DNA of 64,000 nt, from positions 1 through 64,000 of the forward strand of contig JAFQOW010000012.1 of assembly GCA_017412055.1 (NCBI GenBank). Direction: 5' to 3'. The notes under the pieces were generated by a model. It had not been told where the DNA came from, made no database searches, and worked only from the letters and a program-made list of their open reading frames with translations. This document shows positions 35,011-63,842 of the stretch, piece after piece. The position numbers and the translations under genes were made by a program. Every line of letters begins with the position of its first letter. Position 1 is the first letter of the stretch. Origin of the DNA: Lachnospiraceae bacterium. Lineage in GTDB: Bacteria; Bacillota; Clostridia; Lachnospirales; Lachnospiraceae.

Positions 35011-35076
35011 TTCACACCCAAAATCTCGTATTTCACACCCTCATATCACGAATTTATTGCAAAGATACGATATAAT
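35010..35076 (+). promoter_or_regulatory. class A LytTR box pair and promoter of regulator 1
   Basis: Perfect direct repeats TTTCACACCC lie at 35010-35019 and 35031-35040, 21 bp start to start (two helical turns), as expected for a dimer of LytTR domains. A perfect TATAAT lies at 35071-35076, 30 bp after the second repeat. It precedes the response regulator gene, so autoregulation is likely. Confidence 0.85.
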
Positions 35077-35126: not shown

Positions 35127-35852
35127 ATGAAGATAGCGGTCTGTGACGATGACAGAACCACAAGGGAACAAATTGCTTCTTTGATAAGAGAACAGGAGCC
35201 GGATGCGGAGGTTGTTACCTTTGAAGCTGGGGAGGAAATGATTAAATCGCAGGAGAATTTTGCGGTTTCTTTTCTTGATGTGGAAATGAAAGAAATATCG
35301 GGGATAGATGTTGCAAAGCATATTAGGGAAGAACAGGAGAAAAGAAGCAGGGAAAAAAGTATTATTATATTTGTAACCGGATACCGGGAGTATATGGAGG
35401 ATGCCTTTGATGTAAACGCTTTTCATTATCTGGTAAAGCCTGTGGATGAAAAGAAATTCCATACTGTCTTTAATCGTGCGTTGAAAGAGGTATCTGTGAA
35501 ACATAGGCAGAAAAAACTTTCTGTAATTATCAAATACAATGGTATGCAGAAAAAGGTTTTGCTGAAAGATATTTATTATATTGAGAGCAGTAATAAAAAA
35601 GTAGTGTTCCATACGAAGGACGGAAAAATTGATACTTATGGCAGAATGGATGATTGGGAAACAGAGCTGGGTGACTCATTTTATCGGTGTCACAGAGGCT
35701 ATCTTGTTAATCTGGAAAAAATAACAGCCTATAATGTGGATACCATTGATTTAATAAACGGTGACTCTCTCATTCTTGCACAGAAGAAATATTCGGATTT
35801 TATCAAGGCATATATGCGATATGCAAAGGACGGAGGAATTGTAAATGTTTAG
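35127..35852 (+). CDS. LytTR response regulator 1
   Basis: The protein has 241 residues. The N-terminal receiver domain has the acidic pocket D7-D8-D9, phosphoacceptor D51 (FLDVEM) and the K in LVKPVD. The C-terminal LytTR DNA-binding domain (about 135-235) has YYIESSNKKV and FYRCHRGYLVNL. This is the AgrA/VirR type, which binds direct repeats about two helical turns apart. Upstream it has perfect class A repeats, and its gene overlaps the kinase gene by 8 bp. No agrB or agrD lies next to this pair. Confidence 0.93.
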   Translation: MKIAVCDDDRTTREQIASLIREQEPDAEVVTFEAGEEMIKSQENFAVSFLDVEMKEISGIDVAKHIREEQEKRSREKSIIIFVTGYREYMEDAFDVNAFHYLVKPVDEKKFHTVFNRALKEVSVKHRQKKLSVIIKYNGMQKKVLLKDIYYIESSNKKVVFHTKDGKIDTYGRMDDWETELGDSFYRCHRGYLVNLEKITAYNVDTIDLINGDSLILAQKKYSDFIKAYMRYAKDGGIVNV

Positions 35853-37284
35853 TTTGCTGTCCATGTTGATACATATAATCAACAGTATTTTTAGCGGAAT
35901 ATATACAAGTTTATTTTTGAAACCAAAGCATGATAAAAAGTCAACAGTTATTCTGTGGAGCATAATCTATTTTCTTATGCAGGTGCTTATATTTGAGGTC
36001 ATACAGAGCCGCTACCCATTTAATAACGTGATAAGTGCTATTATCAATGTGTCATTAATAGTAGGAATGCAAAGAATATTTTTTCGTAAAGGTACTTCAA
36101 GTCAGTTATTTGTATGTTTTAGTTTTGTAGCAGGAAAAGAGATTGTAAAGTATATTGCCAGCGTATTAAACGTAGTATTGGGTGCAGTTGCAGGAAAGTG
36201 GTTGGATGAATTGATTATGCAGGGGCAGATTGTCGCAAATAATCATGTAGAATTGGTTACGAATGTAATGCTATATGTGATGTATATTGCCAGTGCAATT
36301 CTTTATGCGTTGATTTTGGGAATATATTTGTCATTGATTCACAAAAAGTATGTAAGAAAAGAGTATCAGTTACAGATTCGAGAAAATGTATTTTTGATAT
36401 TACCTTGCATTGCGGCAGTATGTATTTCCATAACTCTGAAAATGATGATTATTACCGTAGAAAACGGAACAACGACTCTTATTTATGATACGATTCCGGC
36501 TACTTTGTTTTGGATTCCTGTGATATGTGTTCTGTTGTTAGGAACAGTTATAGCCAATGTTATGCTTTTTCAGAATGTGGTGCAGTATCATGAAGAAAAC
36601 AAAAAAGCCACCTTATTGGAAAATCAGATACAGCAGATGCAAAAAGAGGTACAGGAGATACAGGATATTTATGCGGATATGCGTGGATTGCGTCACGACT
36701 TGAGAGGGCATATCAATAATATTACGCAGTATGTGATGAAACAAAATAATACCGATGTCGAGGAACTGAATGACTATATCAGAAATATGGAAGAAACCGT
36801 AAGCAGGTTAGATTTTGGTTATCAGACAGGAAATCCGATTACGGATATTATTATTCATCAAAAGAAGCAGGAAGCAGACAAAGCAGGGGTAAAGTTTTTT
36901 GTAGATTTTAGTTATCCGAAAGAACTTCAGATAGATGTGTATGATATTGGAGTGATTTTGAATAATGCGTTGGAAAATGCAATCGAAGCTGCGACTCAGA
37001 TGGAAAGAGATAAATATGTATCATTACATTCTTATGTGAAGGGAAATCTTTTCTTTGTTGAAGTGGAGAATAGCTTTGCAAGAGAAATTGTAATGAACAA
37101 AGAGAGTGGTCTGCCGGAGAGCAGTAAAGCAAATAAGAAATCTCATGGAATGGGACTTACTAATATACAGAGGTGTGCAAGGAAGTACAAAGGCGATATT
37201 GATATTGTCATTGAAACTTCTAAGCAGGAACAGCAAATATTTAATCTTACAATAATGTTGAATGGAAAACCTGTCGGGCCATAA
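35845..37284 (+). CDS. GHKL sensor histidine kinase 1 (AgrC-like)
   Basis: The protein has 479 residues. About six membrane segments occupy the first ~240 residues. A coiled linker follows, then the dimerisation helix with phosphoacceptor His284 (LRHDLRGH) and a GHKL ATPase domain with NNALENAIEA and SHGMGLTNIQR. It probably senses a peptide or another membrane-borne signal and phosphorylates regulator 1. The overlap with the regulator gene indicates coupling. No dedicated peptide gene lies beside it. Confidence 0.92.
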   Translation: MFSLLSMLIHIINSIFSGIYTSLFLKPKHDKKSTVILWSIIYFLMQVLIFEVIQSRYPFNNVISAIINVSLIVGMQRIFFRKGTSSQLFVCFSFVAGKEIVKYIASVLNVVLGAVAGKWLDELIMQGQIVANNHVELVTNVMLYVMYIASAILYALILGIYLSLIHKKYVRKEYQLQIRENVFLILPCIAAVCISITLKMMIITVENGTTTLIYDTIPATLFWIPVICVLLLGTVIANVMLFQNVVQYHEENKKATLLENQIQQMQKEVQEIQDIYADMRGLRHDLRGHINNITQYVMKQNNTDVEELNDYIRNMEETVSRLDFGYQTGNPITDIIIHQKKQEADKAGVKFFVDFSYPKELQIDVYDIGVILNNALENAIEAATQMERDKYVSLHSYVKGNLFFVEVENSFAREIVMNKESGLPESSKANKKSHGMGLTNIQRCARKYKGDIDIVIETSKQEQQIFNLTIMLNGKPVGP

Positions 37285-37299
37285 GCCGGATAGGTTTTT
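37266..37299 (+). terminator. terminator overlapping the end of kinase 1
   Basis: AAAACCTGTCGGG pairs with CCGGATAGGTTTT (wobble and one mismatch), followed by T residues. The T-run merges with the class A box TTTCACACCC that drives the next gene. Confidence 0.6.
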
Positions 37300-37363
37300 C
37301 ACACCCAAAACGGAGTAGTTCACTCCTTTGCTATGAAATCCATGCTGTAAAGTTCCGATAAGG
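37297..37363 (+). promoter_or_regulatory. class A LytTR box pair before the 37.4-kb gene cluster
   Basis: TTTCACACCC (37297-37306) and the weaker GTTCACTCCT (37318-37327) start 21 bp apart. A -10-like region with CCGATAAGG lies about 30 bp downstream, at the same distance as in the regulator 1 promoter. Confidence 0.75.
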
Positions 37364-40670: not shown

Positions 40671-40739
40671 TTTCACAACATAAAAAGGTCAGTTCACGCA
40701 TGGAATTAAAGAAATTATGTAGATTTGCCGATGTAAATA
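40671..40739 (+). promoter_or_regulatory. class B LytTR box pair before the 40.8-kb gene
   Basis: TTTCACAACA (40671-40680) and the weaker GTTCACGCA (40692-40700) start 21 bp apart, with TAAAAAGGTC in the spacer as in the other class B sites. A GATGTAAATA region lies about 30 bp downstream. Confidence 0.75.
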
Positions 40740-42569: not shown

Positions 42570-42608
42570 GAGCCGATAGAGTAAAATCCTATCGGCTCAT
42601 ATTTATTT
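42570..42608 (+). terminator. terminator before the second LytTR operon
   Basis: GAGCCGATAG (42570-42579) pairs perfectly with CTATCGGCTC (42589-42598), followed by ATATTTATTT. Confidence 0.8.
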
Positions 42609-42673
42609 CACAACATAAAAAGGTCGTTTCACAACATCTAGGTATCGAAACAGGGTATAAGTTCCGATATAAT
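42606..42673 (+). promoter_or_regulatory. class B LytTR box pair and promoter of regulator 2
   Basis: Perfect repeats TTTCACAACA lie at 42606-42615 and 42627-42636, 21 bp start to start with TAAAAAGGTCG between. A perfect TATAAT lies at 42668-42673. They precede the second response regulator gene, which suggests autoregulation. Confidence 0.85.
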
Positions 42674-42705: not shown

Positions 42706-43413
42706 GTGCGTATAGCGATATGCGATGATGAAAAGAACATCAGGGAGTTAATAGCAAGTAAGGTGTTAAAGCAATATCCGGAGGCAGAGATTGTTTTCTT
42801 TTCGTCCGGAGAAGAACTGCTTTTATCAGATAAGAATATAGATATACTGTTTTTGGATATTCAAATGTCAGGCAGAGACGGTATGGAAACAGCTAGAGAA
42901 CTTCGCAAAAAGGACAAAACGGTGGTACTTATTTTTGTGACTGCGGTGGAGGAGTATGTATTTCAGGCATTTGATGTAGGAGCCTTTAATTATATTGTGA
43001 AGCCCATTGATGATACAAAGTTTGAAGATGTACTTTGCAGAGCTGTAGATGAGTTACTTTCAAAGGACATGGATGTGCGAGAGCCGGAAGCAAATTATGT
43101 GATGATCAACAATGGAGGGGTTCACACAAAGGTAGTGATAGAGGATATTGTCTATGCAGAGGTGTTCAATCGTAAAGTGGTTATTCATAAACTAGACGAT
43201 GAAATTGAGTATTACGGAAAAATGTCTGACCTTGAGGCGGTAGCAGGGGACAGTTTTTTCAGACCGCACAGGGCATATCTTGTGAATTTTAAGTATGTGG
43301 AGAAATATGATGCCACCACCATTTATCTGGAAAAGGGAACTGCTCTTATGGCAAAGCAGAATTACCCGGACTTTGTAAAAAAATACATGAAGTACAATCA
43401 GAGGAAAGGGTAG
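42706..43413 (+). CDS. LytTR response regulator 2
   Basis: The protein has 235 residues and a GTG start. The receiver has D7-D8, phosphoacceptor D51 (FLDIQM) and IVKPID. The LytTR domain (about 130-230) has DIVYAEVFNRKVV and FFRPHRAYLVNF. It differs from regulator 1 in the residues around the DNA-reading region, consistent with a different repeat sequence. Perfect class B boxes lie upstream. The kinase gene follows directly. Confidence 0.93.
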   Translation: MRIAICDDEKNIRELIASKVLKQYPEAEIVFFSSGEELLLSDKNIDILFLDIQMSGRDGMETARELRKKDKTVVLIFVTAVEEYVFQAFDVGAFNYIVKPIDDTKFEDVLCRAVDELLSKDMDVREPEANYVMINNGGVHTKVVIEDIVYAEVFNRKVVIHKLDDEIEYYGKMSDLEAVAGDSFFRPHRAYLVNFKYVEKYDATTIYLEKGTALMAKQNYPDFVKKYMKYNQRKG

Positions 43414-43419
43414 TTGCTT

Positions 43420-44787
43420 ATGGAAAATATAGAAACATATTGGGCAATAGCAAATAAAACAATAGCTATCATCAACATATTGATAGAAGGTTGGCTGGTT
43501 TATCGGTTTGTAAAGCCATTTATAAATAGAAAATCATACTGCGTAGGAATTAGTTATTCATTGGCAATGCTTGTATTTTACCTTGTACCACAGGAGATGA
43601 CTTACCCATATCTGTTGGGGATTTTTGTGGCTTGGATTACGATGTGCCTGACAGAGAGAAAAAAGATTAAGCAGAAAATCTTTTTAGCGATTTCCATGTA
43701 CTTGATTCGGTGGATGGTTTATGGTGTGACATTGGTACTCAGAGATATTATGTTTGCTCTGTTTATTAACACACCATATATGCTTACGGAACCGTTAAAG
43801 CAACTGATAGCATATATCGTTGTGGAACTGATTTATTACGGTGTAGCCATAGTCGTTATGTGGCTTGTAATTAAGTTAATTCATAAGGTGTATGTGAATA
43901 AAAAAGAGGATATATCAGGAAAAGAATTGATATTACTTTTTGCAACTCTTTTGACTGTAATGGTAGGATATTTTACATTTAATTTCTTTTCCAATGTGTA
44001 TGTAGAAGATACAGGAAATTATGTGTGGAATGTTCATCCGGGATATACTTTTTTACGGGTGATATATCAGATCGTTTCTTTTGCGGCTATCCTTATTGCA
44101 GTTATTATTTACCAGAGGATAAAGGAAAAACAGCGGGAGGAAAATGTGAATTTGCTATTGGCAGAGCAGATAGAGAACACAAAGCAGCATATCAATGAAG
44201 TGGAAAAGCTGTATGGAGATATTCGGGCATTAAAGCATGATATGGGTAATCATATTTCAGTATTAGAAAATCTCTTTATGAAAAATGAGACAGAAGAACT
44301 TGAAAAGTACATGGCTGAACTGAAATCGGCATGGAGTGAGAGTGTGGCAGAAATTAAGACAGGAAATCCTGTTACCGATGTGATTCTGACGCAGAAGCAG
44401 AAAGAAGCTGATGAAAAAGGAATTGATTTCAGGTGCCAGTTTATGTATCCAACGGACACAGGTATCAATGCGTTTGATGTCAGTGTTATATTAAACAATG
44501 CTATTACCAATGCGTTTGAAGGGGTAAATGGTTGTAAAAATCCTTATGTTTCCATATCTGCTTATCGTAAGAAAAATGCGTATATGCTAGAGGTGACGAA
44601 CTGTATTAGCAAGTATGTGGAAGTAGATGATGAAACCGGGTTGCCGGAAACCACAAAGAAAGATAAGGGCAGTCATGGTTATGGACTTGCTAATATCCGT
44701 AAAGTGGCTCAGAAATACTATGGGGACATAGATATAAGTCAGGATGAAAACAGCTTTACATTGACGGTTATGTTAATGGTTGAATAA
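43420..44787 (+). CDS. GHKL sensor histidine kinase 2 (AgrC-like)
   Basis: The protein has 455 residues from ATG 43420; a TTG six bases earlier is less well placed. About six membrane segments occupy the first ~230 residues, followed by the dimerisation helix with His273 (LKHDMGNH) and a GHKL ATPase with NNAITNAFEG and SHGYGLANIRK. No peptide-processing genes lie beside it, so its signal may come from elsewhere, possibly from the agrBD genes at 63.7 kb. A conserved terminator follows. Confidence 0.92.
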   Translation: MENIETYWAIANKTIAIINILIEGWLVYRFVKPFINRKSYCVGISYSLAMLVFYLVPQEMTYPYLLGIFVAWITMCLTERKKIKQKIFLAISMYLIRWMVYGVTLVLRDIMFALFINTPYMLTEPLKQLIAYIVVELIYYGVAIVVMWLVIKLIHKVYVNKKEDISGKELILLFATLLTVMVGYFTFNFFSNVYVEDTGNYVWNVHPGYTFLRVIYQIVSFAAILIAVIIYQRIKEKQREENVNLLLAEQIENTKQHINEVEKLYGDIRALKHDMGNHISVLENLFMKNETEELEKYMAELKSAWSESVAEIKTGNPVTDVILTQKQKEADEKGIDFRCQFMYPTDTGINAFDVSVILNNAITNAFEGVNGCKNPYVSISAYRKKNAYMLEVTNCISKYVEVDDETGLPETTKKDKGSHGYGLANIRKVAQKYYGDIDISQDENSFTLTVMLMVE

Positions 44788-44795
44788 GAAATAAT

Positions 44796-44841
44796 GGACA
44801 CAATTCTGTACAAAAAGGTATGGATTGTGTCTTTTATTTTT
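44796..44841 (+). terminator. terminator after kinase 2 (repeated cassette)
   Basis: GACACAATTC (44797-44806) pairs with GGATTGTGTC (44822-44831), followed by TTTTATTTTT. A near copy lies at 48290-48331, also followed by a box. Confidence 0.75.
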
Positions 44842-44842
44842 G

Positions 44843-44910
44843 GTTCACAACATAAAAAGGTCGTTTCACAACAAGTCTATTTAGTATGAAGTTTTATCTT
44901 CCGAAATAGG
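44843..44910 (+). promoter_or_regulatory. class B LytTR box pair before the 45-kb genes
   Basis: GTTCACAACA (44843-44852) and TTTCACAACA (44864-44873) start 21 bp apart, with ATAAAAAGGTCG between them. A CCGAAATAGG region lies about 30 bp downstream. Confidence 0.8.
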
Positions 44911-45948: not shown

Positions 45949-46761
45949 ATGAGAATTAACGGTTTAAATGGAGCAAATACACCTGCGGGTGGGATGAATA
46001 TGACGAAGGCAACAGATTCTGTTAGCAAGAATTTGCAGAATCAGATTGCCAATGCTCAGAAGCAGTTGCAGGAGCTTTCTGCCAACAAAGATATGAGCAT
46101 TGAAGAAAAAATGAAGAAACGACAGGAAATACAGCAGCAGATTACAGATTTGAATAATCAGTTAAGACAGCACCAGATTGAGCAGAGAAAAGAGCAACAG
46201 GCAAAGAAATCTTCTATGGATGATATGCTTGGTGGTAGTAAGAAAACTGCTCCGAAAGCCGGAAAACAAAGTACAGGTCTGTCACAGGCAAGTATGACAG
46301 CTATTATTTCTGCTGATTCTGCAATGGCACAGGCTCAGGTGCAGGGTAGCGTTGCTACAAAGATGGAAGGCAGAGCTGGTGTGCTGGGGTCTGAAATCAA
46401 GTTAGATTCGGCTCGTGGTGATGATGTAGAGGCAAAGAAAGAGGAGCTTGCAGAAGTAGAGCAGAAGGCGGCTCAAGCAGAATCTGCACAGATGAATACG
46501 TTGGCTACTGCAAATAAAGAATTGGAAGAAGCTGCGAAAGCAGATCAGCAGACTGAAAAAGCAGATGATAAAGATAAGAAAACAGATAAGAAGGATGCTG
46601 TTTCAAATGAAAAAGAGGACAAGACTGTGGCAGGAACAGAAGAAACCGAGAATGTGGGTGCTGAGATTAAGAATGAAACAGTTAGTGCAGACGTAGCAAA
46701 ACCGGTAGAGGTATCTGTAGCGGAAACAGTTACATATACCCATGTTGATGTGCGTTTATAG
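45949..46761 (+). CDS. FlxA-like coiled-coil protein
   Basis: The protein has 270 residues. After an N-terminal MRINGLNGANTPAGG, residues 25-95 form a coiled coil with LQNQIANAQKQLQEL and QQQITDLNNQL, the pattern of FlxA-like family proteins. FlxA is a flagellar-class gene product in enterobacteria with unknown function. An alanine/lysine/glutamate-rich C-terminal part ends in the tail THVDVRL. GGAGG precedes the ATG. It may be a flagellar-type export substrate or cap component. Confidence 0.7.
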   Translation: MRINGLNGANTPAGGMNMTKATDSVSKNLQNQIANAQKQLQELSANKDMSIEEKMKKRQEIQQQITDLNNQLRQHQIEQRKEQQAKKSSMDDMLGGSKKTAPKAGKQSTGLSQASMTAIISADSAMAQAQVQGSVATKMEGRAGVLGSEIKLDSARGDDVEAKKEELAEVEQKAAQAESAQMNTLATANKELEEAAKADQQTEKADDKDKKTDKKDAVSNEKEDKTVAGTEETENVGAEIKNETVSADVAKPVEVSVAETVTYTHVDVRL

Positions 46762-46773
46762 GAGGTGCTTACT

Positions 46774-47526
46774 ATGTCAGAAATAAATAGTTTCAGCGAT
46801 TATGCAAGTAAATATAACACGAATGTAGATTATTCCTATTTGTTCGGTGGTATGCAGACACCTTCAACAGGCAGTGCTTTTAATCTTTCTGACTATGCAG
46901 CAATCAAAAATGGCAGTTATGGAAAATTGCTAAAGGCATATTATGCAAAGCAGGATGCAGAAAAGGCATCTTCCGGTGGGGATACTGTACAGAAATCTAC
47001 ACTTATGAAGTCAGGAGCGGATGCACTAAAGAAATCAGCAGATGCTTTAAATAATGATGAACTCTGGGAAAAGAAGAAAATCAAGAAAAAGGATGAAAAG
47101 ACCGGAGAGGAAATCGAGGTTGAAGATTATGATTGGGAAGCTATCACAAAGGCTGTGAAATCATTTGTAGAAGATTACAATGATGTTGTGGAACAGGCAG
47201 GTGATTCCAATTCAAAAGATGTATTACGCAATGCTGTGTGGATGACAGGAATTACCGAATCCAATGAAAATATGCTTTCAAAAATCGGTATTACCGTAGG
47301 CAAGGGTAATAAGTTGGAACTGGACGAGGAAGCACTTAAAAAGGCAGACATTAGTTCATTCAAAACACTTTTTACCGGACATAATTCGTTTGCTGATAAG
47401 GTATCCATGAAAGCAAACAGTATTTCCAATGCGGCAGCACGTTCAAGTGGAACCTATAAGAGCAATGGTACATATAACAATTCCCTATCTGAGCTTGTAT
47501 CGAAGAAGGTAGATGAGGAAGTGTAG
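46774..47526 (+). CDS. FliD C-terminal-like protein
   Basis: The protein has 250 residues from ATG 46774, with GGAGG eight bases earlier; a start at 46765 overlaps the ribosome site. The segment around residues 130-215 (KSFVEDYNDVVEQ, MLSKIGITVGKGNKLELDEE, FKTLFTGHNSF) resembles the C-terminal domain of the flagellar hook-associated protein FliD, which caps filaments. The N-terminal part (NTNVDYSYLFGGM) is unlike full FliD and the protein is shorter. It is likely secreted and filament-related, by analogy only. Confidence 0.65.
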   Translation: MSEINSFSDYASKYNTNVDYSYLFGGMQTPSTGSAFNLSDYAAIKNGSYGKLLKAYYAKQDAEKASSGGDTVQKSTLMKSGADALKKSADALNNDELWEKKKIKKKDEKTGEEIEVEDYDWEAITKAVKSFVEDYNDVVEQAGDSNSKDVLRNAVWMTGITESNENMLSKIGITVGKGNKLELDEEALKKADISSFKTLFTGHNSFADKVSMKANSISNAAARSSGTYKSNGTYNNSLSELVSKKVDEEV

Positions 47527-48257: not shown

Positions 48258-48289
48258 AGAGAGTTTGTTAAGTCGATTAGAAATGAGGG

Positions 48290-48331
48290 GCACAATTCTG
48301 TATGAAAATGTATGGATTGTGTCTTTCTTTT
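48290..48331 (+). terminator. second copy of the repeated terminator cassette
   Basis: GCACAATTC (48290-48298) pairs with GGATTGTGTC (48313-48322), followed by TTTCTTTT. It is nearly identical to 44796-44841. Confidence 0.7.
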
Positions 48332-48491: not shown

Positions 48492-49010
48492 GTGTTAAGT
48501 GATGATAAATTGATAGAACAGATTAAGTGTGGCGATAAGCAGGCAGCGGAAGAACTGATTACACGTTATTATGCCTCTATATTGCGTTATTGTAGATGGC
48601 ATTGCTCCAGTGCGGAAAAAGCGGAAGATTTGGCACAGGAAACATTCTATAAACTGTTTAGAAATATATCCGGCTACAAAGGAAAAAGAAAGTTTAAAGC
48701 ATACTTATATACCATTGCCAACAGATTGTGTATTGATGAAAGCAGAAAGAAGCCACTTTATTCGATAGAGGATGAAGAAATTATTATAGACGAGTGCGAT
48801 GAAATACTCAGGTTGGAGGATAAGGAGGAGATAAATTATCTTTTAAGCATCTTATCCCCCGAACAGAGGGAGGCAATCATATTACGTTTCGGAGAACAGC
48901 TTGAGTTTCATGAAATAGCAAGGGTTATGGGATGTAACATGAGAACTGCACAAAGCAGAGTCCGGAACGGATTAAAAATCATGAGGAAGGAGCATGGAAA
49001 TGAAAGATAG
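48492..49010 (+). CDS. ECF-type RNA polymerase sigma factor
   Basis: The protein has 172 residues and a GTG start after AAGGAGG. Region 2 (about 20-85) has AEDLAQETFYKLFRN and AYLYTIANRLCIDE, and region 4 (about 115-165) has LSPEQREAIILRFGEQL and HEIARVMGCNMRTAQSRV. It directs RNA polymerase to a small set of promoters. The gene overlaps the next membrane protein, a candidate anti-sigma partner. Its targets probably include the ABC and VanY-like genes downstream (inference). Confidence 0.92.
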   Translation: MLSDDKLIEQIKCGDKQAAEELITRYYASILRYCRWHCSSAEKAEDLAQETFYKLFRNISGYKGKRKFKAYLYTIANRLCIDESRKKPLYSIEDEEIIIDECDEILRLEDKEEINYLLSILSPEQREAIILRFGEQLEFHEIARVMGCNMRTAQSRVRNGLKIMRKEHGNER

Positions 49011-49761
49011 AACTTTGAAACATAACTTATATCATTCTTTAGGACAGGAAGTGCAACCGAAGAGACTGGAAGAAACCATAAACTATTGTACCGAGATTAT
49101 GAAAGAACAAATGCTTTATAAAGAAGAACCACGAACCAGTTTCTTTCAGTATTTGTCAGATGTATTCCGGTTTGAAGGAATACCAATATTTATCTTACAG
49201 GCATTGACCTTATTTTGGGTTTGTCTGACGATTGCTAGTGTGGCGGACATACCACAGAATATACCGATGTTCATGCCTCTCTTTGTGTTGGCTGCCATGC
49301 CTGTGCTTTTCAAAAGTCAGATGTATGGAATGAGTGAAATTGAGGCAGTAACAAGAGCATCCGGTGCCCAGATTATGTTAGCGAAATTAGTTTTGGCTGG
49401 TTCGGCTAATCTTGTTTGTATCACGATTGTGTTATGTTTGGAAATGTCTATACAGAGTGATTGTGGTGAGTTAGGACAAATGGTGTTGTATTGTCTGGTT
49501 CCGTATCTGGCTTGTATGACGGGAATGCTTAGGCTGGTACGGTTACAAAGAAAAGAGAGCATATGTACATGTGCAGTTATAATGCTTGGTTCCTGTGTCT
49601 GCTGGGCAATTTCATCAAGAGTAATACCGTGGTTATATGCCACATCTGCAGCCTCATTCTGGTTGATTGCATTCGTGGTATTCGGAATATTTTTTGTAAA
49701 AGAGGTTCTGTTTATTGCAGAAATGAGAAAGGAAGGAAAAATATATGGAATTATCGCTTGA
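49000..49761 (+). CDS. membrane protein, possible anti-sigma factor
   Basis: The protein has 253 residues from ATG 49000, seven bases after AAGGAG; the ATG at 48994 is too close. The N-terminal ~65 residues are soluble and followed by about six membrane segments. It overlaps the sigma factor gene by 11 bp. This is the arrangement of sigma factor and membrane anti-sigma genes. No zinc-binding motif is seen, so the assignment rests on position and topology. Confidence 0.6.
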   Translation: MKDRTLKHNLYHSLGQEVQPKRLEETINYCTEIMKEQMLYKEEPRTSFFQYLSDVFRFEGIPIFILQALTLFWVCLTIASVADIPQNIPMFMPLFVLAAMPVLFKSQMYGMSEIEAVTRASGAQIMLAKLVLAGSANLVCITIVLCLEMSIQSDCGELGQMVLYCLVPYLACMTGMLRLVRLQRKESICTCAVIMLGSCVCWAISSRVIPWLYATSAASFWLIAFVVFGIFFVKEVLFIAEMRKEGKIYGIIA

Positions 49762-50620
49762 CCGATTAACAAAGCATTATGGAAATAAAATAGCTGTAGA
49801 TTGTGTGAGTGCAACTTTAAAGCCGGGTGTATACGGGCTTTTGGGGGCAAATGGTGCTGGGAAAACGACTTTGATGCGTATGTTGTGCGCCATTCTGGAG
49901 TCGACTTCGGGTGAAGTGTTGTTGAATGGAAAAGAAGTAACAGCGATGGGAGCAGATTATAGAAATGTATTAGGATATTTGCCGCAGGACTTTGGATATT
50001 ATCCGAACTATACAGCAATGGAATTTTTGATGTATGTTGCAGCTCTTAAAGGAATACCAAAGAATATTGCGAAGAAGAGAGCAAAGGAATTGCTGGAGGT
50101 AGTAGGGTTAAGTAATATGGCAAACAAAAAAGTAAAAACATTTTCAGGTGGCATGAAGCAGAGAGTAGGAATTGCACAGGCGTTACTGAATAATCCGGGG
50201 ATTTTAATTTTAGATGAACCAACAGCGGGACTTGATCCCAAAGAGCGTGTGAGGTTCCGTAATCTGCTTTCGGAATATGCAGGAGATAAAATTGTAATTC
50301 TTTCAACACATATTGTGTCGGATATAGAAGCGATAGCAGATGAAGTGCTGTTAATGAAGAAAGGTAAGTTTGTGTTGCAGGGAACAGTCCAGGAATTGAC
50401 CGAGAAAGCAAATGGTAAAGTATGGGAACTAACCGTTTCACCGGCAGAAGCAAGAAAATGGCAGGCAAGAACAACAGTTGCAAACTTGCGACATGAAGGA
50501 AAAGACATTGTGCTGCGTATTATTTCTGACAATATGCCTAGTGAGCAGGCGGTTCCGTGTGAAGCAACCTTGGAAGACCTTTATTTATATTATTTCCCGA
50601 CAGAAGAAGGGGGACAGTAG
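49745..50620 (+). CDS. ABC transporter ATP-binding protein
   Basis: The protein has 291 residues. Walker A GANGAGKTT is at about residues 34-42, then the Q-loop YLPQDF, the signature FSGGMKQRVGIAQAL, Walker B LILDEPTAGLDP and the H-loop STHI. It would energise the permease encoded next. The gene overlaps the end of the membrane protein gene by 17 bp. Class: exporter-type, substrate unknown. A resistance or lantibiotic-like role is possible. Confidence 0.92.
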   Translation: MELSLDRLTKHYGNKIAVDCVSATLKPGVYGLLGANGAGKTTLMRMLCAILESTSGEVLLNGKEVTAMGADYRNVLGYLPQDFGYYPNYTAMEFLMYVAALKGIPKNIAKKRAKELLEVVGLSNMANKKVKTFSGGMKQRVGIAQALLNNPGILILDEPTAGLDPKERVRFRNLLSEYAGDKIVILSTHIVSDIEAIADEVLLMKKGKFVLQGTVQELTEKANGKVWELTVSPAEARKWQARTTVANLRHEGKDIVLRIISDNMPSEQAVPCEATLEDLYLYYFPTEEGGQ

Positions 50621-50621
50621 G

Positions 50622-51833
50622 ATGGAATTATTTTTATTAGAACATAAGAAATTATGGAGAAAGCGTATAGTCAAGATATGCGTACTGTTATGCTTTATCT
50701 ATATCGTGATTTTTGGGAGCATATTATCTTTTCAATGGTTTAGTTTTGGAAGTTCAGATGATTATACAAGTGCTTTTGGAAACAATTTTGATGGTTATGG
50801 AATGATAAAGGAAAGTCAGGAATATTCATTAGCTTTTGGTGGCGAACTGACAGATGAAACCTTACAGCAGTTAGTAAGAGAGTATCAGCGAATGGAAGCC
50901 GCCGGAATGGAGAAAGAATTAGAGAAGACTGACTGGAAAATTATAAATAGCTGGTTGTCCATGTTATATCCGGAACTTCGTGATACAGGAACTTATCAGA
51001 CTATGATTAGCTATGTTGAATCCAGTAAATTGGTTGGATTCTATGAGAGAAGAGAGCAGGCTATTGAGGATTTTCTGGAAAATAGTGGACAGGTAGGAAA
51101 AGAAAGAGACTATCTGCTTCAGATGGAAGAAAACGTTGAAACACCGCTTCGTTATGAATGGGTTGATGGTTGGTCACAGCTTCTTGGCAGCATGGTTGCA
51201 GATTTGGGTATTGTAATGGCTTTATTTTTGGCTATAGCATTATCCCCCATGTTCGCAGGAGAGTGGCATGATAATACAAGTGCATTAGTGTTGACAACAA
51301 AGAATGGTTGGAGAAAAATTGCTTTTGCTAAGGTGTTAACAGGTGTTGCATTTACGGTGGAGTTTTTTGTGATACTTGTGATTCCAAGTGTTGTATCCCA
51401 GATGTTCTTTATGGGTACATCTGGCTGGGATATGCCGATTCAGAACATTAAACCGCTTGCTATTGCTCCCATGAATATGTTGCAGGCAGAGGTTTATGAG
51501 TATGCATTTGCATTATTAGGTGCTATTGGATTTGCCGGTGTCATTATGTTTATTTCGGCAACCGTAAGAAATAACGTGCTTTCATTGCTGTTTAGTTTGG
51601 CGGTGGTATATGGTCCAATGATGGTTGCACAGTATCTTCCCTATGAAATGCAAAAAGCATTGGATTTATTACCTTTAGTTGGAAGTGGTGCTGATGTTTT
51701 TAGAACAAATACTTTTCATATTTTCGGAACATATATATGGTCTCCATATCTGTTGATTACGGTCCCGCTTCTGATTGGTATCTGTTGTATGCCGTTTGCT
51801 ATAATGAATTGGTCAAAAAGATTAAAGGCATAG
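50622..51833 (+). CDS. ABC transporter permease
   Basis: The protein has 403 residues and starts at ATG 50622 one base after the ATPase stop, behind GAAGGGGGA. One membrane segment lies near the N terminus (about 18-40), a ~120-residue extracellular loop follows, and about six membrane segments come after it. It is the ABC-2 type export permease layout. It probably acts with the preceding ATPase. The substrate cannot be told from sequence. Confidence 0.88.
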   Translation: MELFLLEHKKLWRKRIVKICVLLCFIYIVIFGSILSFQWFSFGSSDDYTSAFGNNFDGYGMIKESQEYSLAFGGELTDETLQQLVREYQRMEAAGMEKELEKTDWKIINSWLSMLYPELRDTGTYQTMISYVESSKLVGFYERREQAIEDFLENSGQVGKERDYLLQMEENVETPLRYEWVDGWSQLLGSMVADLGIVMALFLAIALSPMFAGEWHDNTSALVLTTKNGWRKIAFAKVLTGVAFTVEFFVILVIPSVVSQMFFMGTSGWDMPIQNIKPLAIAPMNMLQAEVYEYAFALLGAIGFAGVIMFISATVRNNVLSLLFSLAVVYGPMMVAQYLPYEMQKALDLLPLVGSGADVFRTNTFHIFGTYIWSPYLLITVPLLIGICCMPFAIMNWSKRLKA

Positions 51834-51840
51834 AAAGAAT

Positions 51841-52554
51841 ATGGCAGTAAAGAAGAAAAAAGGAAGACGGATTGTAAAGGTATTATTGATAATAGTTGCT
51901 GTATATTTGTTGATGATATTGTGGCAATTGATTGGTGATATTTATTCAAGATTGGTAAATACACATGAGATAGAAGTGTCTGAAGAATGGAATGGTGAAA
52001 GCTATCAAGCTTCAATTGAGTGGAATTTAATTGTTGTGAATAGATGGAACCCAATACCGGAAAACTATAGCGTTGAACTAACAGTATTGTCAAATGGTCA
52101 GAAGGTGGATAGTAGAATATATCCGCATTTACAAGAGATGTTTGATGCGGCTAGAGCGGAAGGGATATATCCTATTGTCAGAGAAGGCTACAGAACAGAA
52201 GAAGAACAGCAGGAGATACTGGATGATAAAATTCAAGCCTACATAAATGAAGGATATTCACAATGGAGGGCAGAAAGAACTGCAAAAGAATGGGTGGCTT
52301 TGCCCGGAACAAGTGAGCATCAATTAGGCATAGCAGTGGATATCAATGCTGATAAAACTAAGTGCACGAATGACGATGTTTATGCATGGCTTGCCGAGAA
52401 TGCTTATAAATATGGTTTTATTCTTAGATATCCACTGGATAAACAAGAGATTACCGGGACAAGCTATGAACCATGGCATTATCGTTATGTAGGGACAGAG
52501 GATGCCTATGAGATTAATGAACGAGGAATATGCTTAGAGGAATATTTTGAATAA
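51841..52554 (+). CDS. VanY-type D-alanyl-D-alanine carboxypeptidase
   Basis: The protein has 237 residues with an N-terminal membrane anchor (about 10-30). The M15B zinc peptidase domain has SEHQLGIAVDI with His160 and Asp167 and EPWHYRYVG with Glu210 and His213, the usual metal ligands and catalytic residues. Such enzymes trim peptidoglycan stem peptides, as VanY does in glycopeptide resistance clusters, though no VanR/S/A genes are present. It may remodel the wall for the ABC or secreted products. Confidence 0.88.
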   Translation: MAVKKKKGRRIVKVLLIIVAVYLLMILWQLIGDIYSRLVNTHEIEVSEEWNGESYQASIEWNLIVVNRWNPIPENYSVELTVLSNGQKVDSRIYPHLQEMFDAARAEGIYPIVREGYRTEEEQQEILDDKIQAYINEGYSQWRAERTAKEWVALPGTSEHQLGIAVDINADKTKCTNDDVYAWLAENAYKYGFILRYPLDKQEITGTSYEPWHYRYVGTEDAYEINERGICLEEYFE

Positions 52555-52582
52555 TTGCCTAGAAAGAGGAGTCGATGGAATG

Positions 52583-52714
52583 CTTCACAACAGAATAAGG
52601 GCGATTCACAACAAAGCACTGTTTCCAAATGCTAAATTGAGCGAAATATAAAATGAATGGGTATATGAATGTTCAGGGGAAGATTTCGCACCCGAAATGC
52701 GGTGTTTCACACTT
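52583..52714 (+). promoter_or_regulatory. tandem class B and class A LytTR boxes (dual promoter)
   Basis: Class B repeats lie at 52583-52592 (CTTCACAACA) and 52604-52613 (ATTCACAACA). A TATAAA -10-like site follows at about 52647. Class A repeats follow at 52684-52693 (TTTCGCACCC) and 52705-52714 (TTTCACACTT). Both pairs are 21 bp apart. A near copy of the whole region lies at 59451-59582. The gene could therefore answer to both regulators. Confidence 0.8.
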
Positions 52715-52764
52715 TTATTATGGAAGAGCTTATTGAAAACAAATTTTCAAGTGAGGTAATAGAG

Positions 52765-53352
52765 ATGAATATATCAAATGCTATCAATACGGTAAGCGTA
52801 TCTGGAAGTTCTAGCAGTAGTGCTAAAAAAACTTCTGAAAAGAACAAGTGGAAATTAACAGATTCATTAAAAGAAAAAATTGTTGAATTGGCTAAGAAAG
52901 ATGCGAAAAACAACATATATATGGGAAATGAGTTTATGAACTTGCGGAAAGCAGAGGTCGCTAAAGTGGCACCAAATCGGGCGGCACTGATAGGTAAGTT
53001 CAACCAATCAATGAGTTCTGGAAATATGGGGGATATGAAAAAAATACAAGAAGCAGACAAAAGATGGCTGTGTATTTTATTTGGGATACCATATGAGGCT
53101 GAATATCAAGGAGAGGGAACTGGTTCTGCGCTCCATATATATAATGAGGAAGGGGAAGAAGTTCTTACATATACTCAAGGAGTAGGGTGGCATGAGAAAG
53201 AGACAAAAGCAGAAACGGGAGTACATTCAGCGTTAAAATTAGCATATTATGAGGCATACCATGATGCAAAAAAAGCACTGAACACTGGAACAAATGTGGA
53301 AATCACAAATGAAAATGTTGTGGTGCAAAGTAATTTTGATGTGAAAGCATAG
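52765..53352 (+). CDS. leaderless cluster protein with NFDVKA tail
   Basis: The protein has 195 residues from ATG 52765; a longer start lies inside the box region and is rejected. The N terminus is Ser-rich (SVSGSSSSSAKK). A KLTDSLKEKIVELAKKDAK helix, VAPNRAALIGKFNQS and a strand-rich C-terminal half follow, ending in SNFDVKA. It has no signal peptide or membrane segment. Tail and N terminus match the cluster pattern. The family is not recognised. Confidence 0.68.
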   Translation: MNISNAINTVSVSGSSSSSAKKTSEKNKWKLTDSLKEKIVELAKKDAKNNIYMGNEFMNLRKAEVAKVAPNRAALIGKFNQSMSSGNMGDMKKIQEADKRWLCILFGIPYEAEYQGEGTGSALHIYNEEGEEVLTYTQGVGWHEKETKAETGVHSALKLAYYEAYHDAKKALNTGTNVEITNENVVVQSNFDVKA

Positions 53353-59450: not shown

Positions 59451-59623
59451 CTTCACAACAGAATAAGGGCGTTTCACAACAAAGCTCTATATTTCAGGAA
59501 TAAATTGTGCGAAATATAAGATGGATGATTATATTACTGTCCAGCTAAATATTTCACACCCAAATTGAAGTGTTTCACTCTTTTGCTATGGAAAAGGAAA
59601 GGGAAAGTAACGATACTTATAAT
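59451..59623 (+). promoter_or_regulatory. second tandem class B and class A LytTR box region
   Basis: Class B repeats CTTCACAACA (59451-59460) and TTTCACAACA (59472-59481) are followed by TATAAG at 59515-59520. Class A repeats TTTCACACCC (59552-59561) and TTTCACTCTT (59573-59582) are followed by TATAAT at 59618-59623. Both pairs start 21 bp apart. It is a duplicate of the 52.6-kb region. Confidence 0.82.
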
Positions 59624-59646
59624 AAGCGTGAAATGGAGGTAATGGC

Positions 59647-61557: not shown

Positions 61558-62265
61558 ATGTTGAAAATTGCTATATGTGATGACAGCAGAACAGATGTAG
61601 AAATGTTGGAGTGTGCCTTTGATAAGCTTTGCCAATATCCGATTGAATATGATGTGTATTATAATGGGGAAGAATTGTTAAAATACTATACGTTACATGA
61701 TGAAGTATATCATCTTTATATCTTTGATATTGAAATGCCGGAGATTAACGGTCTTGAGCTTGCAAAGAAAATCCGTGAGAGAGATGCAAAAGCCTTATTT
61801 GTGTTCCTGACTAGCTACACGAAGTATGTTATGGATGTGTTTGATGTTATTACATTTGATTATATATCTAAACCGATCACAGTAGAGAAGCTGGAGTCGG
61901 TTCTTCTAAAAGCCATGCGTTATCTGAATCTGATAAAGCAGGATTTCGTATTTCAGTTTCGTAAAAACCAATTCAGGGTAAGCTGTGACGATATTCTTTA
62001 TTTTGAAAAGAAAGGTCGTCAGGCGGTCATTCATACAAATTCAGAAACTTACAAGACAAATATGACAACGGAGGAATTATGGAAACAGCTTGATAATAAG
62101 GTGTTTTCACATATTCATGTGTCCTACATTATTAACATAGCACATATTAAAGCTATTGATGGGGATGAGGTTGTATTGGATAATGAGGAACGCTTTTTGA
62201 TTGCCCGTTCTCATAAACAGAGTTTGAAAGAAAAACACATGGAATTTATGCGAAGGATGGTGTGA
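61558..62265 (+). CDS. LytTR response regulator 3 (agr-type)
   Basis: The protein has 235 residues. The receiver has D8-D9, phosphoacceptor D57 (FDIEM) and ISKPIT. The LytTR domain (about 135-230) has ILYFEKKGRQAVI and HIHVSYIINI. It lies upstream of a kinase and the agrD/agrB genes. A class C repeat pair ahead of agrD is its likely target. It differs from regulators 1 and 2 in sequence. Confidence 0.92.
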   Translation: MLKIAICDDSRTDVEMLECAFDKLCQYPIEYDVYYNGEELLKYYTLHDEVYHLYIFDIEMPEINGLELAKKIRERDAKALFVFLTSYTKYVMDVFDVITFDYISKPITVEKLESVLLKAMRYLNLIKQDFVFQFRKNQFRVSCDDILYFEKKGRQAVIHTNSETYKTNMTTEELWKQLDNKVFSHIHVSYIINIAHIKAIDGDEVVLDNEERFLIARSHKQSLKEKHMEFMRRMV

Positions 62266-62268
62266 TTT

Positions 62269-63561
62269 GTGGAATATATTATTCGATTTAGTGTGAATTT
62301 ATTTGATTTGGGTATATTTTGGTATTATTTAAATTCGTTGAAAAAGATGAAAAGAGTACCCAAGATTCTGTTTACAATATACCTTGTGATAATGGCAGTG
62401 GTATGGTCTATAATAAACACTCTTAATAATCCATTCTTTAACCTGATGGCTTTGATTGGTATTCTGTCAATGATAGCTATGTTTTTTGAATCTACAATAT
62501 GGTCCAGAGCTGTAAATATTGTTGTTTTTGTTGGAGCCGGAATAATAGTAGAACCGGTTGGACTAATATTATTGCGTGCATTGAAATATGGTGCAATTTC
62601 GGAAGAAGATTATAAGTATTATTTTGTAGTAGTTATTTGTGCTTTTATAAGAGGAAATGTTCTGTATCTCTTGAGTAAAGCGTTATCGAAAAAGAAGGTT
62701 CGATTATCGAAGGTTCCAAAGGAAATTGTGAGAGTGTTGGCATTGACATTTGGATTTTCTATTCTTAATTGTTGCTTTGTGATTGTGCTTTCTATGGAAA
62801 TAGGCAGTAGTAGAAGTCTTATAATGTGTGTCAGCATCATTATATCTATTGTTCTAACATACTATTTCATGCTGTATATGATGGAGAGATTTAATTATCT
62901 TGCAAGAAAACGACACGAAGATGAGATGTATCGTAAGGAGATGTATTACAAGGAGCAATATTATTCAGAGGTAGATAGGCGTCATGAATATGTACATAAT
63001 CTGAAGCATGATATGAAAAATAAACTGATAGAATTGCATTATTTAGTAGAAAAAGGGGATATTCAGAGAGCTACCGAGCAGCTTACTGTTTATTGTGATG
63101 AATTAGAAAAGATAGATGAGAACAATTATTGTAATAATCCGATTGTGGATTCGGTTCTGCGTATTAAGTTGGGTGTTGCAAAATCAGATAAAATAAAGAT
63201 AGATGCAGATATTCGTATTCCAAAGGTAATGCAGTTGGAGCATGGAGATATTGGTGTACTATATGGAAATCTTTTGGATAATGCCATTGAAGCCTGTCGA
63301 AAAGTAGAGAGTGATAAGCGTTTTATTCGGATTGAAAATAAGTTTACAGAAGGGAAATTGCTTCTGATTGTGGAGAACAGCAAAACCGGAGAAAGAAATG
63401 AGAGTTTAAAAACTACAAAACGGGACAATTACAGTCATGGTCGAGGTATACACAGTGTTCGTAAGGTTGTAGAAAAGTACAATGGAACGGTTACATTTAC
63501 AGATAAGGGAGATATTTTTGAGGTGTCTGTAATCCTTTACGGTATAGAAGCAAAGAAGTAA
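62269..63561 (+). CDS. GHKL sensor histidine kinase 3 (AgrC-like)
   Basis: The protein has 430 residues with a GTG start 3 bp after the regulator stop. About six membrane segments occupy the first ~205 residues. The dimerisation helix has His247 (LKHDMKNK), followed by a GHKL ATPase with YGNLLDNAIEAC and SHGRGIHSVRK. It probably detects the cyclic peptide made by the genes downstream. Confidence 0.92.
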   Translation: MEYIIRFSVNLFDLGIFWYYLNSLKKMKRVPKILFTIYLVIMAVVWSIINTLNNPFFNLMALIGILSMIAMFFESTIWSRAVNIVVFVGAGIIVEPVGLILLRALKYGAISEEDYKYYFVVVICAFIRGNVLYLLSKALSKKKVRLSKVPKEIVRVLALTFGFSILNCCFVIVLSMEIGSSRSLIMCVSIIISIVLTYYFMLYMMERFNYLARKRHEDEMYRKEMYYKEQYYSEVDRRHEYVHNLKHDMKNKLIELHYLVEKGDIQRATEQLTVYCDELEKIDENNYCNNPIVDSVLRIKLGVAKSDKIKIDADIRIPKVMQLEHGDIGVLYGNLLDNAIEACRKVESDKRFIRIENKFTEGKLLLIVENSKTGERNESLKTTKRDNYSHGRGIHSVRKVVEKYNGTVTFTDKGDIFEVSVILYGIEAKK

Positions 63562-63582
63562 ACTGACAGAAATCGACAAAAC

Positions 63583-63643
63583 ATTACACTTAACCTGCAA
63601 TCTGTTACACTTAGATAGAGTTGGGGGGATTTAGTGATATACT
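63583..63643 (+). promoter_or_regulatory. class C LytTR box pair before agrD
   Basis: ATTACACTTA (63583-63592) and GTTACACTTA (63604-63613) start 21 bp apart. TATACT lies at 63638-63643. The spacing rule is the same as in classes A and B but the sequence differs, which suits a third regulator. Confidence 0.75.
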
Positions 63644-63677
63644 ATGCCTACTGAAAGAAAAGGAGGCTAGGAATATT

Positions 63678-63842
63678 ATGTCAAAAGCAAAGAAATTGTT
63701 ACATAAGTTAAGTACAGGTGCATTATCTTCTGTTGCAGCATTAGCACTTATGGTAACAGCAACGAATGTAAGTACCTGTTGTTGGTTTATTCTCGGACAG
63801 GATGAATTACCGGAAAATGCAAAAAAACTTCGCAGATTTTAG
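63678..63842 (+). CDS. AgrD-like autoinducing peptide precursor
   Basis: The precursor has 54 residues: a basic amphipathic leader (MSKAKKLLHKLSTGAL), a hydrophobic stretch, the core VSTCCWFILGQ with two adjacent cysteines (Cys34 and Cys35), and the acidic/basic tail DELPENAKKLRRF. This matches cyclic lactone autoinducer peptides. AgrB would cut the tail and close a thiolactone ring on one cysteine. Which cysteine closes the ring is unclear. AGGAGG lies 11 bases upstream. Confidence 0.8.
   Translation: MSKAKKLLHKLSTGALSSVAALALMVTATNVSTCCWFILGQDELPENAKKLRRF

Follow-up and report, generated by a model that had tools for sequence, protein, structure and literature searches.

Probable capture of a LytTR-box promoter ahead of a Roseburia faecis-type gene in a Lachnospiraceae genome, with one box pair the likely driver and the second a putative relic

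Introduction

Does a gene preceded by two classes of LytTR box pair receive input from two LytTR systems? The question is raised by positions 52583-52714 of a 64,000-nucleotide stretch of Lachnospiraceae DNA (the window), where a first-pass annotation proposed a dual class B plus class A promoter that integrates the signals of two such systems. We analysed the box pairs, the core promoters that follow them, the regulators encoded nearby and the origin of the DNA at this locus.

Results

The gene at 52765-53352 (+, 195 aa) is indeed preceded by two TTCAC-N16-TTCAC type pairs, one per class, in tandem on the + strand. It is presumed to be the first in an operon with 53373 and 54359, and its product had no Pfam or NCBIfam match. 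The order is the reverse of that first given: the upstream pair is class A (TTCACAACA-N12-TTCACAACA, 52584-52614, +; TTCAC pair 52584-52609; read as TTCACAACAGAATAAGGGCGATTCACAACA) and is a putative LytR2 (42706) site, and the downstream pair is class B (52685-52714, +; TTCAC-type pair 52685-52710; read as TTCGCACCCGAAATGCGGTGTTTCACACTT). The pairs had been described as 80 bp apart; they are separated by 75 bp between TTCAC pairs, or 101 bp start to start. The class B halves read TTCGCACCC and TTCACACTT, against a general class B half type of TTCACACCC, and the first is mutated to TTCGC, such that this pair was found only when one mismatch was allowed. A longer reading frame starting at 52669 was rejected, since a ribosome site precedes the start at 52765, which R. 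faecis shares.

Exact pairs were found at eight sites in the window, where 0.25 were expected, and none of 100 shuffles reached eight. All eight were on the + strand, and 21 bp was the sole spacing below 60 bp that paired + strand TTCAC copies; allowing one mismatch added the 52685 pair and brought the total to nine sites. The 21-bp period of LytTR promoters (9-bp repeats, 12-bp spacer) was thus present at eight window sites, and loci of LytR2 homologs contributed 42 pairs at 21 bp. Elsewhere in the genome, such pairs occurred at about the rate of a reversed control pattern. The published LytTR consensus is broad; by eye, TTCACAACA has a CAAC-TA core in common with one Streptococcus mutans repeat. 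Simple pentamer repeats can occur by chance, and these putative regulator sites might be accidental, or a structural or RNA element; given eight pairs against 0.25 expected, and box pairs upstream of LytTR genes throughout the family, we regard this as very improbable. A leader RNA in particular was rejected, as the fold was no better than that of shuffled sequences (z −0.46) and there was no Rfam match.

The window encodes three LytTR regulators: LytR1 (35127-35852, +), followed by the GHKL (AgrC-like) sensor kinase HK1 (35845-37284, +); LytR2 (42706-43413, +), followed by the GHKL sensor kinase HK2 (43414-44787, +); and an AgrA-like regulator at 61558. LytR1 and LytR2 are each preceded by a box pair of their own class, B at 35011-35041 (+) and A at 42607-42637 (+). 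Further class B boxes lie after HK1 and ahead of DUF6033 genes (37298-37327, +), and further class A boxes ahead of the DUF6033 gene 40810 (40672-40697, +) and between HK2 and 44969 (44844-44874, +), the latter pair also preceding the FlxA-like and FliD_C-like genes. Most LytR2 homologs (80 other Lachnospiraceae and related loci) and LytR1 homologs (across the family) also had a pair upstream; 34 of 87 LytR2-type homologs had none by our search pattern, some owing to a poor contig or start call. In a tree of 67 regulators, the class B mark, the position-6 C of TTCAC(A)C.., was found for 9 of the 13 LytR1-side members and for 1 of the 54 LytR2-side members, and single-column tests gave P-values of 2 × 10−4 to 2 × 10−5. 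The claim that two classes mean two LytTR systems is supported: in the window, boxes of each class lie on either side of one LytR-HK pair, and half-site type tracks regulator clade. This supports the reading that each box class would belong to one regulator lineage with self-regulation, and from it we infer the cognate pairing of LytR1 with class B and LytR2 with class A.

A strict identity of class and clade was rejected, owing to one exception (L125) and to several LytR1-side members with other half-sites. In L125 (5842), a class-B-like pair (TTCACACCC/TTCACACCA) lies upstream of an LytR2-type regulator, a possible specificity switch.

If the favoured reading holds, a box pair by itself is not enough for a promoter, and the −10 element at a fixed distance is a simple filter. 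Eight of the nine window sites had CGA at +36/37 from the start of the second TTCAC, the sole exception being 52685. Of the 43 pairs at the 80 LytR2-homolog loci, which were chosen regardless of CGA, 41 had the same trinucleotide at +35 to +37, and 15 chance pairs from other parts of the source genome all lacked it at that distance; across 24 genomes, the box plus CGA spacing pattern gave 59 matches against one for the control. Regulator promoters had the element consensus [AC]CGATATAA, in which only the flanking letters are informative since the sites were selected for CGA, and target promoters had CCGAAA or variants. At promoter A the element is GCGAAATATAA (52641-52651, +), a sigma-28-like −10 at +36/37 with a predicted start near 52654. 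Hence the "dual promoter" of the first-pass annotation stands as two box pairs and falls as two promoters: pair A has its own core promoter, with CGA at 52642, and pair B has no CGA downstream. A search for sigma-70-type promoters in 52400-52800 found none. A terminator-like match at 52463-52477 was set aside, as it sits within the VanY gene.

Which sigma factor would read these promoters? The Butyrivibrio fibrisolvens sigma-28 promoter is TAAA-N16-17-MCGATAa (PMC3720852), and flagellin genes of the source genome carry GCCGATATA or GTCGATATA, of the form GYCGATATA, with TAAAG-like −35s in front. The CGATA columns of the boxed promoters were conserved in agreement with the sigma-28 −10 (MCGATAa/CCGATAT), with the form at 52641, GCGAAATA, a weaker match. 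No TAAA was found at 15-17 nt, where columns −22 to −19 read T-A-T-C, as would be expected of activator-dependent promoters. FliA/SigD is encoded in the source genome (L040; 272.7 bits, above cut-off). It was present in all 27 genomes with a close LytR1-like regulator and in all 15 with a convincing box pattern (four more single-match genomes, one lacking FliA, were counted as chance), compared with 207 of 397 family genomes, these being raw counts that ignore phylogeny. In the LytR promoters, the −10 (CGATATAAT) also includes the sigma-A hexamer TATAAT, and sigma-A is used by the AgrA and S. mutans LytTR promoters (PMC4227749, PMC6193735), so the same architecture might be read by the housekeeping sigma factor, with a TATAAT-like −10 and CGA as spacer or regulator contact. 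We consider this unlikely, though it is the alternative we take most seriously: target promoters (CCGAAAGAAA, CCGAAATAGG, GCGAAATATA) keep CGA but not TATAAT, the A or C ahead of CGATA fits sigma-28 MCGATAa, and FliA occurs in all genomes with the system. Polymerase at promoter A therefore probably carries the flagellar sigma factor, as judged from these motifs.

The origin of the locus accounts for the missing core of B. Positions 52583-52728 (+) form a 146-nt cassette (repeat family D2, blastn) in which box pair A is accompanied by its −10 and box pair B lacks one; the cassette is an ungapped 78% copy of 59451-59596, the promoter of gene 59647. The 221-bp promoter region was sought in eight genus genomes, and only the window's own two copies were found. 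Viral contigs contained neither the A box of the dual cassette nor an exact class A box. Downstream lies a captured gene module (52731-53351, +), a 34-nt leader with the ribosome site plus the gene 52765-53352, with 94% DNA identity to Roseburia faecis; the match covers exactly this one gene and its leader, and the nearby DNA has no further match. Upstream of the R. faecis ortholog there were no A or B boxes, and by eye there is a sigma-A-like TTGATA-N17-TATATT that is absent from the window. In plasmid records only the gene was found, in Lachnospira eligens, without boxes. As cassette homology ends at 52728 and R. faecis homology begins at 52731, leaving a junction at 52729-52730, the gene's own promoter appears to have been swapped for the cassette, cut between box B and its −10. 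On the best reading, promoter B lost its core at this junction, and the pair at 52685 would be a relic.

Upstream of the R. faecis ortholog in L237 (5603) there is also a TTCTG pair of 20-bp period in which AAGGTCGTTTTC recurs from class A; this may be a third box type that has diverged.

Conservation between the copies points the same way. Box pair A with its −10 had 1 mismatch in 42 positions, compared with 22 in 59 for the spacers (P = 2 × 10−5); the A box pair alone had 1 mismatch in 31 nt and its −10 was identical at 11 of 11 positions. Box pair B had 6 mismatches in 30, a modest difference from A (P = 0.018) and none of significance from the spacers (P = 0.15), in a test that covers one locus pair, the 52583 and 59451 copies. 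This pattern agrees with the anatomy, A being conserved and box B seemingly drifting like spacer DNA. Integration of two signals at 52583-52714 thus finds no backing, with the class B −10 lost at the recombination junction and box B conserved no better than spacer.

We put a probability of roughly two in three on the reading that a LytTR-activated promoter was captured by recombination, with A complete and the likely driver and B a relic. Boxes, offsets, junction, copy relations and conservation are what the sequence itself provides, and from them we infer binding, cognate pairing, sigma factor and activation. Recombination would have joined a 146-bp copy of the dual promoter ahead of 59647 to the 34-nt leader of an R. 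faecis-type gene. HK2 would activate LytR2, a dimer of which would bind 52584-52614 and recruit RNA polymerase, probably with FliA, to a core promoter whose −35 is weak, for a start near 52654. The A transcript would then extend across box B, silent in this reading, to 52765 and probably also 53373 and 54359.

Box B might instead retain a function. In a true dual promoter, LytR2 at A and LytR1 at B would both drive 52765; both box pairs are present, both regulators are encoded close by, and the parent promoter (59452/59553) carries both −10s, conserved in two further genomes. With CGA absent after B, a mutated half-site, the −10 region removed by the junction, drift like that of spacer and no sigma-70-type promoter in 52400-52800, we find this improbable. 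We have equally little confidence that box B is an operator within the A transcript, at which LytR1 would block or pause polymerase so that the second system represses. The pair lies at about +31 to +60 relative to the predicted A start, 24 of its 30 bases are kept relative to the intact copy, including TTCAC of the second half and the first ACCC, and AgrA reportedly represses bsaA by way of a site immediately 3′ of the promoter (PMC4227749); against this stand the mutated half-site and a conservation between copies that does not exceed that of spacer. LytR1 may still bind at 52685, given the 24 bases and the intact second half. In the favoured reading, the pair remains a relic.

A better candidate for dual input lies 6.9 kb downstream of the 52583 copy. 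There, the class A pair (59452-59482, +) has its −10 at 59509-59519 and the class B pair (59553-59582, +) has an ACGATA −10 at 59610-59615, such that a separate core promoter follows each box pair within 59452-59615. This A+B promoter is kept ahead of 96-99% identical orthologs in two other genomes (G227 and G404), and in all three genomes CGA lies at +37 for both A and B. Genuine two-system input is plausible at 59452-59644, on the strength of these motifs. Either system could start transcription of 59647 from its own promoter, a logical OR, and LytR1 on box B might also block A transcripts.

Discussion

The two systems resemble HdrRM and BrsRM of S. mutans (PMC6193735), two LytTR systems with largely overlapping regulons, in which 9-bp direct repeats with a 12-bp gap (21-bp period) are likewise found and the regulator operons are autoregulated. 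Unlike here, those systems have membrane inhibitor proteins instead of sensor kinases, one kind of repeat for both, sigma-A promoters whose −35 lies 4-11 bp downstream of the repeats, and no tandem two-class promoters. Staphylococcus aureus AgrA at agr P2/P3 (PMC4227749) is also an autoregulating LytTR response regulator with a GHKL kinase, acting at paired direct repeats that precede a core promoter whose −35 and −10 are poor; it differs in its use of sigma-A with abnormal spacers, its half-site sequence and its being a single regulator. The sigma-28 flagellin promoters of Roseburia, Eubacterium and Butyrivibrio (PMC3720852), in the same bacterial family, share the −10 (MCGATAa/CCGATAT), and flagellum-related products (FlxA-like, FliD_C-like) are among the boxed genes. 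In the flagellin promoters a −35 TAAA is present and activator boxes are absent, whereas in the boxed promoters TAAA is not conserved and LytTR-type boxes lie at a fixed distance.

Literature searches for FlxA with Lachnospiraceae, for DUF6033/DUF3879/DUF4885, and for LytTR with Lachnospiraceae and promoter found no paper, and the combination of LytTR boxes with a sigma-28-like element seems undescribed in the literature searched. The wider find is a putative conserved promoter architecture of this kind in motile Lachnospiraceae. We think the chances are about even for a fuller proposal, in which a Lachnospiraceae family of LytTR two-component systems would act only with the flagellar sigma factor via a fixed box-to-−10 geometry, mobile elements would shuffle the promoter cassettes, and two specificities would converge at 59452-59644. 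If true, common gut bacteria would have sensor-controlled LytTR regulators tied to the flagellar sigma factor, half-site letters 6-9 would be a readable code from paralogous regulator to controlled gene, and 52765 would be a concrete example of a gene drawn into a regulon via a ready-made promoter. For the products served (FlxA-like, FliD_C-like, DUF6033, DUF3879), flagellar co-expression would be a lead.

The left part of the window contains conjugation genes (CD1115-family VirD4), which places the cluster on an integrative conjugative element or next to one, a setting that fits the shuffling of cassettes and single genes. By sequence similarity, LytR2-HK2 followed by FlxA-like and FliD_C-like genes occurs in the same order in R. 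faecis (L142) and GAM79 (L174); in the window, the FlxA-like and FliD_C-like genes at 45949-47526 lie behind the 44844 class A promoter. An ECF sigma factor, an ABC transporter and the VanY carboxypeptidase (48492-52554) are inserted between boxed operons, and a VanY homolog is also close to LytR2 in R. faecis (L142, 259-1002).

The third LytTR system, at 61558-63842, comprises by inspection the AgrA-like regulator, an AgrC-like kinase and an AgrD-like peptide gene (CCWFILGQDELPENAKKL); no A or B box pair was found near it. A 56-nt direct repeat (84%) with inverted halves (ACACAATTCTGTA/TGGATTGTGTC) lies 3′ of genes at 44784-44839 and 48276-48331, and looks like a shared terminator.
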